A stretch of 40,965 nucleotides of DNA. It comes from Fimbriimonadaceae bacterium (GTDB taxonomy: Bacteria; Armatimonadota; Fimbriimonadia; Fimbriimonadales; Fimbriimonadaceae). Below, piece after piece: positions 1,817-40,177 of the stretch. A program made the translations under genes and the position numbers. Where the stretch lies: the NCBI GenBank assembly GCA_019638775.1, contig JAHBTD010000006.1:1-40965 (forward strand), given 5' to 3'. Position 1 is the stretch's first letter; each line of letters opens with the position of its first letter. Under the pieces are notes generated by a model that saw only the letters and a program-made list of their open reading frames with translations, did no database searches and was not told where the DNA came from.

Positions 1817-2533
1817 TCATCCAAACGCCGTGACCTTGCCACTGTGTAAGTCGTAGACGGCGCCGACGACCTTCAGCGTTCCCTTCTTTACCGAACCGGC
1901 CAGGATCGGCTCCAGACGCTTGAGCCGCTCCACACCCCGCTCAACGTTGGCTTTGATGGCGTTATCGAGTATGTTGCCCTGCTTATTCTTCACCACTGCC
2001 ACGGCCGGCCTAATCAGATCGACAAGACCGCCGATGGAACCCGGCAGGGTGTCTTTGGCATCAATGTGCTTGATGGCAGCCTTGACCGCGCCGCACTGGC
2101 TATGACCCAGCACCAGGATCAGCCGTACGTCGAGTTCCGCAACCGCATACTCGATGCTTCCCTTCACGGAATCGCCCGCGCCGGTGATGACGTTTCCGGC
2201 CACGCGGACCACGAATAGGTCTCCCACGCCTTGATCGAAAATTAGTTCAGGGGCAACGCGTGAGTCCGCACAGCAGACGATCGCGGTAAGTGGAGCCTGA
2301 CCCTCCGCCAGTGGCACGAAATCCTCCGGTTTCCGGCGAGGGTGGGCAAGATCCCCCTTCATGAACCGTTTGTTCCCCTCGAGCAATTGAGCCAGCACCG
2401 TATCCGCATCCCGTCCTCCTGTCGGTAGATCGGCTGCCCGTCCCATCGTCGAAAGGGCGAGACCGGTCGCGCCAACCGCTAGTCCGGAAAGCCGCATGAA
2501 CTCACGCCGAGACACCGGTTTCGGAACTTGCAT
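1817..2533 (-). CDS. Tat-exported beta-class carbonic anhydrase
   Basis: A 238-residue protein converting CO2 and water to bicarbonate. The N-terminus has a twin-arginine motif, SRREFMRLSG (Arg9-Arg10), followed by a hydrophobic stretch to about residue 33. This predicts folded export to the periplasm rather than the usual cytoplasmic location. Zinc and catalytic motifs are complete: CADSRV (Cys88, Asp90, Arg92) and LGHSQCG (His144, Cys147). The start at 2533 has GGGAGG upstream; a nearby second ATG gives no better spacing. It lies 18 bases downstream of a LysR gene on the same strand, so the two are probably co-transcribed. Tat-exported beta carbonic anhydrases are known in several bacteria, but their role is less clear than that of the cytoplasmic form. 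Confidence 0.9.
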   Translation of the reverse strand: MQVPKPVSRREFMRLSGLAVGATGLALSTMGRAADLPTGGRDADTVLAQLLEGNKRFMKGDLAHPRRKPEDFVPLAEGQAPLTAIVCCADSRVAPELIFDQGVGDLFVVRVAGNVITGAGDSVKGSIEYAVAELDVRLILVLGHSQCGAVKAAIKHIDAKDTLPGSIGGLVDLIRPAVAVVKNKQGNILDNAIKANVERGVERLKRLEPILAGSVKKGTLKVVGAVYDLHSGKVTAFG

Positions 2534-2551
2534 GACATGCCTCCCTCAAAA

Positions 2552-3487
2552 TCAGCAGTCAGGTTCAACATCCTTTTCGTTCGACAACACCAAGCATTCT
2601 GTCTTCTGAGGAAGAACCGATCTCTTTTCAATGGTGAAACTTACAAACGTTCGTAAGTAAGGATTTTGGTTTTCTCTTTTCCAAAAGACTCGTACGGGCA
2701 AGAACATGTCCCTAATCGGAACAAATCGAGTGTGATGAGAGGCAATGTTTTGAGATCCAGCGATGGTTAATGCAACCCCTCTTCCTGTCGCCACGAGAAT
2801 TGGACAACATTCTCCATCGCCTTTAATGTAAATCTTCGGCCTCCGTGTCATCCCTTTGATCAGACGGGCGACTCTGTCATGCCATTCCGCGACCTCTTCT
2901 CGGTGATGAAGAATGATCGTGTCATCCTTCAGGTCGGAAAGCTGAATTTCCTTTCGTGTTGATAGCGGATGTTTTTTGGGAAGAAGAACACCCAAATTTT
3001 CTGAATCGACCTCATGGCTTTCGATCTCGGGGTCGTAGATCACTCCTTCCACAAAGCCCACATCAAGACACCCATTCTTTACGAGCTTGACGATTTCTTT
3101 ACTCGTTTTCTCTCGAAGATCCAGCGTGATTTTTGGGAAACGAACTTGAAACTCGTCAATAACCGCAGGGAAGCGAGCCATAAATGCCGCCCTCGAAAAT
3201 CCAATCTTAAGGATGCCGGTCGTCTTTTTCCCGACGGCACGGATATCCGATTCAATCCTTGAAATAGCCGACGCAATCTCCCGTGCTTCTCTCAGAAGCA
3301 GAACGCCCGCTCCAGTCAACCGGACGCGTCTCGTAGTTCTTTCAAACAACTTGGTGTCCAGTTCATGTTCCAACGAAGCAATAAGTCTCGTAAGTGGCGG
3401 CTGAGACATCCCGAGAATCTCAGCGCTTTTTCTAAAGTTGAGTTCCTCTGCAACAACGATGAATGCCTTCAACTTGCCAACGTCCAT
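2552..3487 (-). CDS. LysR-family transcriptional regulator
   Basis: A 311-residue regulator with the standard winged helix-turn-helix at residues 1-60 (LKAFIVVAEELNFRKSAEIL, then SQPPLTRLIASLEHELDTKL) followed by the periplasmic-binding-protein-like effector domain. Length is typical. The start is ATG 3487. It directly precedes the carbonic anhydrase gene with 18 bases between, which suggests an operon. LysR regulators more often face their target divergently, and here the divergent neighbour is a methyltransferase gene at 3645, leaving a shared 157-base control region. The effector-domain sequence resembles the aromatic/CbbR-like branch only in general terms, so no ligand is proposed. Confidence 0.88.
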   Translation of the reverse strand: MDVGKLKAFIVVAEELNFRKSAEILGMSQPPLTRLIASLEHELDTKLFERTTRRVRLTGAGVLLLREAREIASAISRIESDIRAVGKKTTGILKIGFSRAAFMARFPAVIDEFQVRFPKITLDLREKTSKEIVKLVKNGCLDVGFVEGVIYDPEIESHEVDSENLGVLLPKKHPLSTRKEIQLSDLKDDTIILHHREEVAEWHDRVARLIKGMTRRPKIYIKGDGECCPILVATGRGVALTIAGSQNIASHHTRFVPIRDMFLPVRVFWKRENQNPYLRTFVSFTIEKRSVLPQKTECLVLSNEKDVEPDC

Positions 3488-24589: not shown

Positions 24590-25190
24590 ATGAAACAGGT
24601 ACCGCGACAGCAGTATACGAAGGAATTCCGGTAGCAGGCTGTACGGCTGGTCCTGGAACAGCAGGTGACGCTTCCGGAGGCAGCCCGACGCCTCGCCATT
24701 GTCGATCACCCTCCAACCCCACTGTGTCCCAGTTGGTGTGGCGTTGATCGCTTGAACCTACCACCGCGTACTTTGCGAAGGTGCAGCTGCCCGGTACGTG
24801 CTCATGAGGAGTCTCCGTCTCCAGTATCCCCTGAGTGTGTTGTGTCGGGTGCTGGAGGTGTCCCGAAGTGGGTACTCTGCCTGGCGAACGCAACGCCCCT
24901 CGAAGCGCGCTCAGGACAACGCGCACCTGGAAGTGGCGATCCAGGCCGCGCATATACGCACGCGGCAGACCGATGGGCGAAGCGTCTCCAGGCGGAATTG
25001 CGTGAGGACGGCTTTCCAGCCGAGATCAGCCGCGGATTCGACGCACGCGCTGCCGGTCGCGGACAACGTGTTGGCTCAGAGTTTTGCCACCAGGCGACCG
25101 AATGAGACGTGGGTCACCGATATAACGTCTGTGCCAATCGTGAAAGGGTGGCTGTATCTGGCTGGCGTGAAGGTCATACTGGCTGGGTGT
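24590..25190 (+). pseudogene. Decayed IS3-family element (orfA and orfB remnants)
   Basis: OrfA starts at ATG 24590 (MKQVPRQQYTKEFR, stop, QAVRLVLEQQVTLPEAARRL) with an in-frame TAG. OrfB pieces follow: LRLQYPLSVLCRVLEVSRSG, then frameshifts, KRLQAELREDGFPAEIS, and FATRRPNETWVTDIT with GWLYLAGVK, where the first catalytic Asp of the DDE domain lies. The second catalytic Asp and the Glu are lost. It is a different IS3 lineage from the intact element at 31324. Confidence 0.8.
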
Positions 25191-25462
25191 ATGGCCACGA
25201 TGAGCCAGTCTCAGCAGCAACCTTTTCTGCGTTGCGCACCATCCATTCCATTCGTAGGTCGCTGACCCCATAGCCAAAGCACTCGCTGGATCAATATAGG
25301 TCTCAACTTCCGATATGAGTGCTGGATAGCTGGAATCATTCAGATCGCCGAGAGGGAAAAGCCACGCCAGCTAATCATCTTCGGTTGTAATGAATCTGTC
25401 GAGGCTTGTGGCTGTATATTACTGAGGTCTCATCATTGGATTTTTCGGCGCTCTATGTTGCC
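25191..25462. other. Unassigned stretch between IS remnant and attC-like site
   Basis: Stop codons interrupt all plus-strand frames and no protein family was recognised. If the attC-like site that follows is real, this should be the body of the preceding gene cassette, perhaps broken by the IS3 remnant. Nothing in the sequence proves this. Confidence 0.4.
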
Positions 25463-25541
25463 GTCTAACGCCCAAGCTCAGCTGCGGGCTTGCCTTCGCT
25501 TTCCTCCGGCAAGCCCGTCCGCTGGAGTGTCCTTGTTAGGC
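25463..25541 (+). other. Candidate integron attC (59-base element) recombination site
   Basis: A 79-base imperfect palindrome bounded by R''-type GTCTAAC (25463-25469) and R'-type GTTAGGC (25535-25541), which fit the RYYYAAC and GTTRRRY core sites and pair with one mismatch. Inside, CGGGCTTGCC pairs with GGCAAGCCCG, and CTCAGC pairs with GCTGGAG leaving one unpaired G, as expected of the extrahelical bases in folded attC sites. Length is within the usual range. No integrase of the IntI type and no second attC are seen in the window. Confidence 0.68.
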
Positions 25542-25551
25542 ATCTTTTCTA

Positions 25552-26720
25552 GTGTAGTAATTCATGCTGTTCTTGTCTTATCCAGGGCGATCTTGGCTCG
25601 ATTTACTTTTGTCAGGATCTCCTGGGCGGATTTGGTCCACACAAACGGTTTAGGCTGGGCATTGCGCTGGGTCATGTACGCGTCAATGGCCGCAATCAGC
25701 TCGTGGACGCTCCGGAACACACCCCGCCGCAGCTGTTTGGCCGTCAGATCACCAAAGACACGCTCCACGAGATTAAGCCACGAGCTACTCGTCGGGGTGA
25801 AGTGCATGTGGATGCGGGGGTGCCGTGTCAACCACCGCTGGACCGTGGGGTGTTTGTGGGTGGCATAATTATCGGCGATCAGATGCAGGGCTTTGTCCTG
25901 AGGACTCTGCCGATCAATCAGCCGTAAGAACCGCAGCCATTCCTGGTGCCGATGGCGGGGCAAGCAGGCAGAGATCAAGGAGCCCTCCGCGACGTTGAGG
26001 GCGGCAAAGAGCGTGGTCGTGCCGTGGCGCTTGTAGTCATGGGTCATCGTCCCGCACCGGCCTTTCTTCAGCGGGAGGCCAGGCTGTGTGCGATCGAGCG
26101 CTTGGATTTGGCTTTTCTCATCGACGGCCAGAACCACCGCATGCGCTGGCGGGTGGAGATAGAGCCCCACCACATCCTCCAATTTCTCCTGGAAGTGCGG
26201 ATCCTGACTGAGCTTGAAGGCGCGGACCCGATGGGGGTGCAGCCCATGCGCGGTCCAGACCCGCTGCACGAACGTGGGATTCGTCCGCAGGTGTCGCGCC
26301 AAGGTGCGGGTGGACCAGTGGGTAGCGGCAGGTAGTTTCGTGTGCGTCGTCGTCTTCAGGATGCGCGCGGTCAGAGTCCGGCGTGCCTTAGGGGGCCGCC
26401 CTCCGCGAGGGGCATCCTGGGCAAGGCCGAGCACGCGCTGGGTCACGAAGCGCTGCCGCCAGAGCCCCACGGTTTGCCGGCTCGTGGCCACGGCAGCGGC
26501 AATCTGATGATTGTCGTGGCCCGCGGCCGCCAACAACACAATCTTGGCGCGGAGCACCAGTCGCGCAGGCGTTCGTCGTCCACGCGCCCACTGCTCGAGT
26601 TGCTGGCATTCAGGGCCACTCAGATGAACGGCGGGGGCAATGCGCATGGGTCGATCCTCCTTGGGGAACAGAGGATACTCACGCGAGACAATAAGTCAAG
26701 TCACTTATGACCCACTACAC
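25552..26720 (-). mobile_element. Second complete IS630-family insertion sequence (1,169 bases)
   Basis: Ends begin GTGTAGT at 25552 and ACTACAC ends at 26720, with more similarity inside (…CAT). TA flanks both sides (25550-25551 and 26721-26722) within CTAG. It entered 11 bases beyond the attC-like site. Its ends and its transposase differ from those of the IS630 at 7865, so this is a separate IS with the same target choice. Confidence 0.85.
25562..26647 (-). CDS. IS630-family transposase
   Basis: A 361-residue transposase. HTH region HDNHQIAAAVATSRQTVGLW, then catalytic core LAVDEKSQIQALDRT (first Asp), LIADNYATHKHPT (second Asp) and SWLNLVERVFGDL (Glu). AAGGAGG lies 9 bases before the ATG at 26647. 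It shares the architecture of the transposase at 7927 but is clearly divergent, with a TGA stop inside the IS rather than one supplied by the target. It appears intact. Confidence 0.92.
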   Translation of the reverse strand: MRIAPAVHLSGPECQQLEQWARGRRTPARLVLRAKIVLLAAAGHDNHQIAAAVATSRQTVGLWRQRFVTQRVLGLAQDAPRGGRPPKARRTLTARILKTTTHTKLPAATHWSTRTLARHLRTNPTFVQRVWTAHGLHPHRVRAFKLSQDPHFQEKLEDVVGLYLHPPAHAVVLAVDEKSQIQALDRTQPGLPLKKGRCGTMTHDYKRHGTTTLFAALNVAEGSLISACLPRHRHQEWLRFLRLIDRQSPQDKALHLIADNYATHKHPTVQRWLTRHPRIHMHFTPTSSSWLNLVERVFGDLTAKQLRRGVFRSVHELIAAIDAYMTQRNAQPKPFVWTKSAQEILTKVNRAKIALDKTRTA

Positions 26721-26871
26721 TAGTTGATTCTTGGGGCGACATCTCAGCAGATTAGCCCTCAAGCCCAGTAGATTACCTAGTTCCTCACCGCACAGGGCTC
26801 CTCCATTATTAAGGCAATGCTTTACCAGCGACTTTTCTTTGCAGCGACGATATTTGAAAAGGAGAAGCACC

Positions 26872-27733: not shown

Positions 27734-27940
27734 AATACGTCCGCCTATCTGGTCCACGCGGGTGACCATTGCGATCGCACATCGCTGTCGTTCTACAACG
27801 TGACCATCACCCGCTCATACAAAACGAGTGAGGAAATGTGGAAGCGCGCAGACTCGTTCAGCTTGGACGACCTCGAAGCGGTCTTCGTCGGCCCTCGCGC
27901 TGGAGACGTCCTGCTTCACTACCAGGTCAACACAGGATAA
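27734..27940 (+). pseudogene. Open fragment of unknown function
   Basis: A 68-codon frame without a start codon and following an in-frame stop, reading AYLVHAGDHCDRTSLSFYNV, RSYKTSEEMWKRADSFSLDD and LEAVF. Composition looks coding, and the piece overlaps the end of the traF remnant on the other strand by 22 bases. I do not recognise the family. It is likely debris from the same conjugative element. Confidence 0.35.
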
Positions 27941-28284
27941 ATGACGCTTTGAATGTGTACTCGAGGCACGGGGCCAAAGTAGCGCGCATCGAAGGAACGG
28001 CTATTCGCGTCCGACATCAACAAAATGTCCGAGGCGGCCAGTACATGATCGGTCACACGAAACCGTGGAAGCGGTCGTCCCACTGAGTCTTCCTCAAATG
28101 GCTGACTGGCTGGGATGAGCGTGCCGTTAACCATGACCCCCTCATCCGTCACGCTTACCACATCGTGGTGGATGGCCACGACCTTTTTCATCATATTGCC
28201 GTATCCGCCCGGACAAAATCCCGCCCCGATGTAGCCCCGCTCCTTCGCCAGGTCAAACTCAGGGCGCGCCGGAGGACACCACAA
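27919..28284 (-). pseudogene. 3' part of a conjugative-transfer signal peptidase gene (TraF, S26 family)
   Basis: The frame reads RPEFDLAKERGYIGAGFCPG, then MMKKVVAIHHDVVSVTDEGV (containing the catalytic-lysine region KKVVAI), then DVLLMSDANSRSFD-type sequence DILLMSDANSRSFDARYFGP and ends VYPVLTW-like. This is the core of TraF/S26 peptidases that mature pilin in conjugation. The N-terminal membrane anchor and catalytic Ser region are absent, and upstream codons are unrelated, so the gene is truncated. The terminal catalytic pair is incomplete and it is probably dead. It points to a lost ICE or plasmid. Confidence 0.68.
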
Positions 28285-34048: not shown

Positions 34049-34780
34049 ATGTTACTGCTGATGCCACCGACCATGACAAATCCGCCTGTTCCTTTGGTTG
34101 TCCGCCGATTTTCCAGCAATCACGAACCGCAGTTAGTCTGGACAAACGAACGTGGGGGGCTAACCTTTCGTGCTGGAAATCACTTCGTGAAATGGAATCC
34201 GCGCACCACAGGACTCGATCTTGAACAAGAGCGGCTTAGGCTAGAGTGGGCAATCCGTTGGCATCCAGTACCGAAAGTGCTCAACTGGGGAGCCGATGAT
34301 AAGGCGCAATGGCTGGTTACTGCCGCGCTACCCGGCGAAGGAGCAGTCATGGAGCCATGGCGCATGCGACCGCTTGATGCGGTTCGTGCGATTGCGCGAG
34401 GGCTTTGCATGTTGCATGACAAGCTCCCTGTTGCCGACTGCCCCTTTCATTGGTCGGTTGAAGCTCGAAGAAATCACTGCATTCAGGGCGAAGGTTTGAG
34501 TGGGCCGCCCATTGACCGTCTCGTGGTTTGTCATGGTGACGCCTGTTCACCAAATACAATCATTGCGCCGGACGGAAGTCCGGCCGGTCACGTCGATCTC
34601 GGCTCGCTTGGTGTCGCGGACCGTTGGGCCGACTTGGCTATTGCAAGCCGGAGCCTCGAGTACAACTTCGGACCGGGTTGGGAAGACGAGTTCTTCAAGG
34701 TGTACGGCATCGAGCGCGACGAGGAGCGGATCTCGTTCTATCGATTGCTCTGGGACAATGAAGATAGGATGAGACACTAA
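34049..34780 (+). CDS. Aminoglycoside 3'-phosphotransferase-like kinase
   Basis: About 236-243 residues (start ATG 34049, or 34073, which gives MTNPPVPLVVRRF). The kinase signature is complete: FVKWN with the ATP-binding Lys near 48, VCHGDACSPNTII with catalytic Asp164 and Asn169, and GHVDLGSLGVADRWADLAIA with the Mg-binding Asp183. The C-terminal FFKVYGIERDEERISFYRLL is typical of APH(3') relatives. Such enzymes phosphorylate kanamycin-type drugs. It is followed by EamA, and an AAC(3)-I-like gene lies at 37299. The drug specificity cannot be read from sequence. Confidence 0.82.
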   Translation: MLLLMPPTMTNPPVPLVVRRFSSNHEPQLVWTNERGGLTFRAGNHFVKWNPRTTGLDLEQERLRLEWAIRWHPVPKVLNWGADDKAQWLVTAALPGEGAVMEPWRMRPLDAVRAIARGLCMLHDKLPVADCPFHWSVEARRNHCIQGEGLSGPPIDRLVVCHGDACSPNTIIAPDGSPAGHVDLGSLGVADRWADLAIASRSLEYNFGPGWEDEFFKVYGIERDEERISFYRLLWDNEDRMRH

Positions 34781-39229: not shown

Positions 39230-40177
39230 TCAAATCACAATCCGCTCGACTTCATCCAACGAGACCTGATCAGTACGTCGATCATAGAGGCCCGTCGTAC
39301 GGGCACTTTCATGGTTGGCCATCTGCTGAGCAATTTCCAGCTTCCCGCCATTGCGGAGATATTCGGTAATCCCGGTCGCGCGGAACGAATGGTTGCCGAT
39401 CTTCGTGCGAATGCCGACTTCGGTGGCGCGGCGGCGAATCATGCGGTAGGCATCCACTTGCGTCATCGGTTTGTCGGAGAGCTGCCCCGTCCGGCCGTGC
39501 ATTGTGCGAAAGAGCGGGCTGGTGCCCTCGGTCAACTGGGCCGTCTTGAGGTAGGCATGAAGGTACTCATCAAGATTGTGATGGCAGGGCATTGCATGGA
39601 GCTTGCCGCCTTTTTCATGCAGTCGCACCCAGGTCCGACGACCTTGGATATAGACATCCTCCACCTGCATCGACAGGGCTGCGCCAATCCGTGCAAACGT
39701 ATAGACCATCAATCCAATCAAGGCCCGGTCGCGTAATCCAACGATTGTGCTCACGTCAATGGCCTCGATCAGCATTCGGGCTTCGTCGGCCATGAGCACC
39801 GGCGTCTTGCCTTTCTTCGTCGAGTACTTGGGCCCCCGCACGGAGCTCGCCGGATTGGAGGGGAGCACCTGACCGACCACCAACCAATCGAACAGCATGC
39901 GAATGGCCGCCAGATGTTGCTTGATCGATGGAGCTGACAGGCGGTCCTGAAGCGTCTCAATATAGGTCGCCACATGCACCGGCTCAATGGCGGGCAAGGA
40001 GAGGAGTCCATGCCGTTCGCACCAGGCGGCAAATTCTGCGACCGCCCAGGTGTAGGCCTTGCGTGTGTTCGGGTTTCGAATGTTGGCGGTAAAGAATTCG
40101 ACGAACCGTTTGGTCGCGTTGGGCGTCGGAGTGAAAAGGGCGGGGAGTTTCCTGGTTCCCGGTATTACTAGCTGCAT
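39230..40177 (-). CDS. Tyrosine recombinase / phage-type integrase
   Basis: A 315-residue recombinase with a SAM-like core-binding domain (about 20-115) and a complete catalytic domain: Arg163 in ARIGA, Lys189 in LHEKGGK, His263 and Arg266 in HSFRAT, His289 in NHESA and Tyr298 in TTGLYDR. The start at 40177 puts the first strand right at the N-terminus. It is compact, like TnpI or XerC-type enzymes, without the arm-binding domain of phage integrases. Upstream, 36 bases away, is the inverted-repeat core described at 40214-40237; downstream is a Tn3 transposase remnant. It may resolve or move a Tn3-type element. Confidence 0.9.
   Translation of the reverse strand: MQLVIPGTRKLPALFTPTPNATKRFVEFFTANIRNPNTRKAYTWAVAEFAAWCERHGLLSLPAIEPVHVATYIETLQDRLSAPSIKQHLAAIRMLFDWLVVGQVLPSNPASSVRGPKYSTKKGKTPVLMADEARMLIEAIDVSTIVGLRDRALIGLMVYTFARIGAALSMQVEDVYIQGRRTWVRLHEKGGKLHAMPCHHNLDEYLHAYLKTAQLTEGTSPLFRTMHGRTGQLSDKPMTQVDAYRMIRRRATEVGIRTKIGNHSFRATGITEYLRNGGKLEIAQQMANHESARTTGLYDRRTDQVSLDEVERIVI

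Follow-up and report, generated by a model that had tools for sequence, protein, structure and literature searches.

Features of the locus

The window, by which we mean the whole 40,965 bp stretch of DNA analysed here, carries at 25463-25541 on the minus strand a 79 bp site that was assigned to attC by its match to a covariance model (R1), by blastn and by its fold. Read on the minus strand, the site runs GCCTAAC AAGGACA CTCCAGCGGAC GGGCTTGCC...GGCAAGCCC GC AGCTGAG CTTGGGC GTTAGAC. Its R'' core (GCCTAAC, 25541-25535) and R' core (GTTAGAC, 25469-25463) agree with the attC consensus sequences on that strand (RYYYAAC and GTTRRRY, respectively); CTCCAGCGGAC is the L'' arm with an extra C, GGGCTTGCC...GGCAAGCCC is the variable hairpin, and AGCTGAG is L'. 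In the outer stem, CTCCAGC is paired with GCTGAG, so that a single C of L'' (G on the plus strand of the window) stays unpaired. The fold with its R box formed and the alignments described below both give an L''/L' stem with an extra L'' base and an unpaired central spacer.

In class 1 attC sites, the extra base sits in L'', and the extrahelical base is a G on the bottom strand. The bulge puts the extra base in L'' in the present site as well; the cassettes are therefore read on the minus strand, and the plus strand of the window is the bottom strand. A first-pass annotation had correctly described the core sites, the 79-base length, a 10-base inner stem and the single unpaired G. It had taken the site as plus, an orientation that we reverse, given that both the bulge in L'' and model R1 place the reading on the minus strand. 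By the established rule of attC cleavage, the crossover is predicted to lie in R' at G|TTAGAC (25468-25469, minus strand; GTCTAA|C on the plus strand).

Next to R' lies what remains of a dihydrofolate-reductase-family (deaminase-reductase) gene, its 5' part (25180-25433, minus strand), which is truncated and decayed and was assigned by tblastn, blastn, annotation and orientation. It comprises residues 1-76 of about 190, interrupted by two in-frame stops and one frameshift, and the remaining part is missing from the window. The gene is cut off at about 25167 by an IS3-family transposase remnant (24766-25167, plus strand). This remnant, already named in the first-pass annotation, is real, as it matches IS3 transposases of Janthinobacterium and Burkholderia by blastn and gives a weak rve match.

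On the other side of the site lies an IS630-family insertion sequence (25552-26720, minus strand) with GTGTAGT terminal repeats, its ends being read from the sequence, flanked by a TA duplicated at 25550-25551 and 26721-26722. Its transposase (25562-26647, minus strand) matches NF033545 with 266 bits and Pfam DDE_3, and the element is single copy in the genome. It begins 8 bases plus the duplicated TA from R'', close to the 11 bases first reported. To the right of the IS630, where the gene of a first cassette is expected, no Pfam family could be placed beside the site and there is only decayed DNA. The first recognisable gene past the IS630, at a distance of about 1.2 kb, is a TraF/Peptidase_S26 remnant; this signal peptidase remnant (27919-28284, minus strand) resembles those of conjugative plasmids. 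Also within the window, an ISL3 remnant matches by blastn Candidatus Manganitrophus, a member of the Nitrospirota.

Identity of the attC site

BLAST of the site against 72,556 plasmid records (7.3 Gb) returned 23 records. The two top matches are the attC sites of the aac(3)-Id cassette (E 6e-9) and of the first cassette of pEG1-1 (E 1e-3); they alone among the 23 cover more than 80% of the query, with both arms and both core sites aligned over 78 bases. Each lies between the first cassette behind intI1 and a following cassette (aadA7 and aadA9, respectively), in the orientation inferred for the window site, and the alignment retains GGGCGTTAGAC along with L'', L' and the cores. The aac(3)-Id attC, from a class 1 integron of Salmonella plasmid pN16-1393-a (NZ_CP092000), has in common with the window site the cores, the extra base in L'', L', the right spacer and the orientation. 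The two are 79% identical over the aligned part and differ in length (78 vs 79) and in the hairpin loop, with one extra left-spacer base in the window. Unlike the window site, however, the aac(3)-Id attC stands beside intI1, between two intact cassettes.

Model R1 was built from 15 class 1 integron attC sites on intI1-bearing plasmids, with the variable hairpins trimmed. None of these was picked by similarity to the window site, and the aadA7 and aadA9 sites are one cassette from the BLAST matches. In the covariation analysis of the R1 alignment, 83% of cells were paired, and the score was above those of all 500 shuffles and all slides. The model recovers 25463-25541 with exact ends and strand at 26.6 bits, the top match in the 4.3 Mb genome, with an E-value of 5e-4 for a search of 125 kb and of 0.018 for one of the entire genome; the site thus passes the covariance check proposed with the first-pass annotation, here with a model of our own. 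With filters off, R1 gives 13.8 bits at 25465-25539 (75 bases), a lower score that we think comes from clipping by the maximal hit length. The broader model R3 scores the site at 47.3 bits; the window site is in its training set, so that R3 is not an independent test and served for looking elsewhere. A scan of the window with Rfam gave no match, nor did the E. coli genomes searched.

The bare core-site pattern is uninformative alone, with 70 matches per strand in the genome vs 138 in the reversed control. When R'' and R' are combined with a bulged L''/L' stem, 25463-25541 is the only match in the window, where chance is expected to yield 0.05 matches per 41 kb strand of order-1 random sequence. 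No second attC was found in the whole window by this geometry scan and by the model search, and no second copy of the site was found in the genome, which makes it single copy.

Folding as DNA gives a z-score of about -3 for either strand. The bottom strand (plus strand of the window), with its R box forced, is predicted to form the hairpin suggested earlier, including the stem, the unpaired G and 7-base spacers, with a fold probability of 0.22; the constraint consisted of five forced R-box pairs, where the published rule uses four R pairs and L pairing. The fold probability exceeds 0.1 in 71% of mobile-integron sites (PMC5371416), and by this estimate 0.22 would fall among the values of active sites (PMC5371416). 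Of the two strands, the top one has the slightly more favourable folding energy (-19.7 vs -17.8 kcal/mol for the bottom strand). The average mobile-integron site differs in this respect, its top strand being not the better folder of the two (PMC5371416).

Hairpins are common, and the genome-wide E-value of R1 is modest. That the site is a mere attC mimic (a palindrome arisen by chance, a terminator of transcription or an interspersed repeat) is nevertheless very improbable, because arms and cores align together to two true attC sites at the E-values given above, and because a single-copy site belongs to no repeat family. We regard 25463-25541 as almost certainly a genuine attC.

A probable decayed cassette array lacking an integrase

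The start codon of the dihydrofolate-reductase-family remnant lies about 35 bases past the crossover G|TTAGAC, on the same strand as the attC. A start shortly past the crossover on the same strand is the usual layout of a cassette. The remnant has homologues on plasmids of Aulosira and Nostoc, and the proteins of these match it by tblastn with E-values of 8e-27 and 9e-27 in pieces that are 66-87% identical. At E 1e-40 or better, the search of the other genomes of the order gave no ortholog of the subfamily, and that of 291 genomes of the phylum gave just one, which indicates that the gene itself was acquired. The locus had been described at first as a stray gene cassette captured without an integrase. 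An attC without an integrase is indeed what is present, but the locus is not simply one cassette, and the second gene remnant had been overlooked. Because this second, truncated gene starts at cassette-like spacing, a decayed array is likelier than a single captured cassette, and the remnant is probably the next cassette of such an array.

There is an unlikely, though serious, alternative, in which IntI inserted a single cassette outside any integron, at a secondary site just ahead of a dihydrofolate-reductase-family gene that was already resident there; the attC would then be true and the gene would be host or plasmid DNA. In its favour, just one attC is present, and the gene's nearest relatives lie outside cassettes, no attC-like site being found beside those in Aulosira, Nostoc and one genome of our set (G113). 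It fits poorly, however, with the cassette layout of the gene start and with the acquired nature of the gene.

No IntI above the TIGR02249 cut-off was found in the genome by a heuristic search of the 126-contig draft, in which absence is not proof; within the limits of this search, the earlier remark that no integron integrase is in view thus applies to the assembled genome. The top TIGR02249 matches in the genome, at 75 bits, look like ordinary Xer-type recombinases. One candidate in the window, a tyrosine recombinase at 39230-40177 (minus strand), was rejected as an integron integrase (40 bits against a cut-off of 265); its best plasmid match is a recombinase of an Aromatoleum aromaticum plasmid (77% identity), and judged by its sequence it is a plasmid-type enzyme. 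That a recombinase other than a canonical IntI, such as this one, shuffles cassettes in this lineage, and still uses the isolated attC, is barely credible; if true, attC would be a substrate of a second enzyme class.

The locus lacks an intI gene beside the cassettes, the arrangement of a complete integron. Among its closest counterparts are CALINs and single-attC remnants, which likewise have attC without an integrase (PMC9024848). CALINs are defined by at least two close attC sites, by default two in IntegronFinder 2.0, and have already been reported in Nitrospira inopinata (PMC9024848); the window has one site.

We consider the locus, with a probability of about 70%, to be an integrase-less, single-attC remnant of a cassette array, that is, an ordinary integron relic and not a new kind of element. 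In this reading, the attC would close the 3' end of an integron cassette whose gene was read on the minus strand, and the bottom strand of the site would fold into the hairpin recognised by IntI, with crossover at G|TTAGAC. IntI is presumed to have built the array. The first cassette has no recognisable gene left; the IS630 inserted just upstream of R'', and unrelated decayed material lies beyond it. The next cassette would survive as its first 76 codons, broken by stops, a frameshift and the IS3 insertion or a deletion. The site is probably still a substrate, in that IntI supplied in trans could at most recombine it with other sites. Nothing is excisable now, since neither a second attC nor IntI is assembled nearby and there is no cassette with attC at both ends. 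The site most likely has no present role.

The site leaves the understanding of integrons unchanged. It is a well-supported integron relic in a lineage with few reported integrons, and a case in which a lone attC can be recognised by means of a neighbouring gene remnant and close homologues. Its nearest known relatives are attC sites from cassettes of class 1 integrons, clinical and plasmid-borne, consistent with the circulation of such types in environmental bacteria.

Related sites and origin of the contig

A true IntI is present in 3 of 113 genomes of the order (G069, G070 and G075), and attC sites adjoin it in G075. In genome G018, four clear attC sites occur together with genes of cassette size on a contig of 3.9 kb. 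Seven sites in the 113 genomes outscore that of the window with R1; they lie beside IntI in G075, in the G018 array, or in G037. The G018 array (contig C32, L071) and the G075 integron (contig C67, L035) belong to the same bacterial family as the window and have the same site architecture, but differ from it in having several intact cassettes or IntI. Related attC sites, which the first-pass annotation had proposed to look for, thus exist in relatives, and a site of this type fits well in this family and is found outside it too. Two Phycisphaerae contigs (L019:368-427 and L020:6717-6776) have attC sites very close to the window type, found by a strict pattern in genome contigs, one per stretch read; the same pattern gave no match in viral contigs.

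The contig could also have been misbinned, in which case the site would be real but uninformative about the organism. This is compatible with a relic of a cassette array, and we consider it somewhat less likely than capture next to a resident gene. The assembly, in 126 contigs, has 3.96% contamination, and the window is one entire contig of it (C6), with plasmid-type genes and a right flank for which the other genomes of the order gave no match. Against misbinning stand the presence of attC sites and IntI in the same family and the ISL3 remnant, whose match to Candidatus Manganitrophus weakly suggests that the window comes from Nitrospirota. The recombinase at 39230-40177 and the TraF remnant suggest that the contig is of plasmid or integrated-element origin. 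It also carries an ORF resembling APH(3')-family aminoglycoside phosphotransferases (34049-34780, plus strand), which scores 162.6 bits against a curated cut-off of 205, in two matched stretches.

A cassette-like locus was also seen on two contigs of G000 (C51 and C52; L075 and L076; about 2143-3210), the first 3.1 kb of which are 96.6% identical. A malic enzyme gene is followed there by a HigBA-like toxin-antitoxin pair (minus strand), whose start comes after GTTAGGC. At its end is an attC-like hairpin in which R' is damaged, and to which R1 gives 18.1 bits and R3 no match. A 255 bp repeat stands on both sides of the pair. The two contigs diverge at 3140, beside a gene resembling DNA adenine methylases and another attC-like hairpin, and the locus resembles a hot spot for insertions, either cassette-like or of defence genes.
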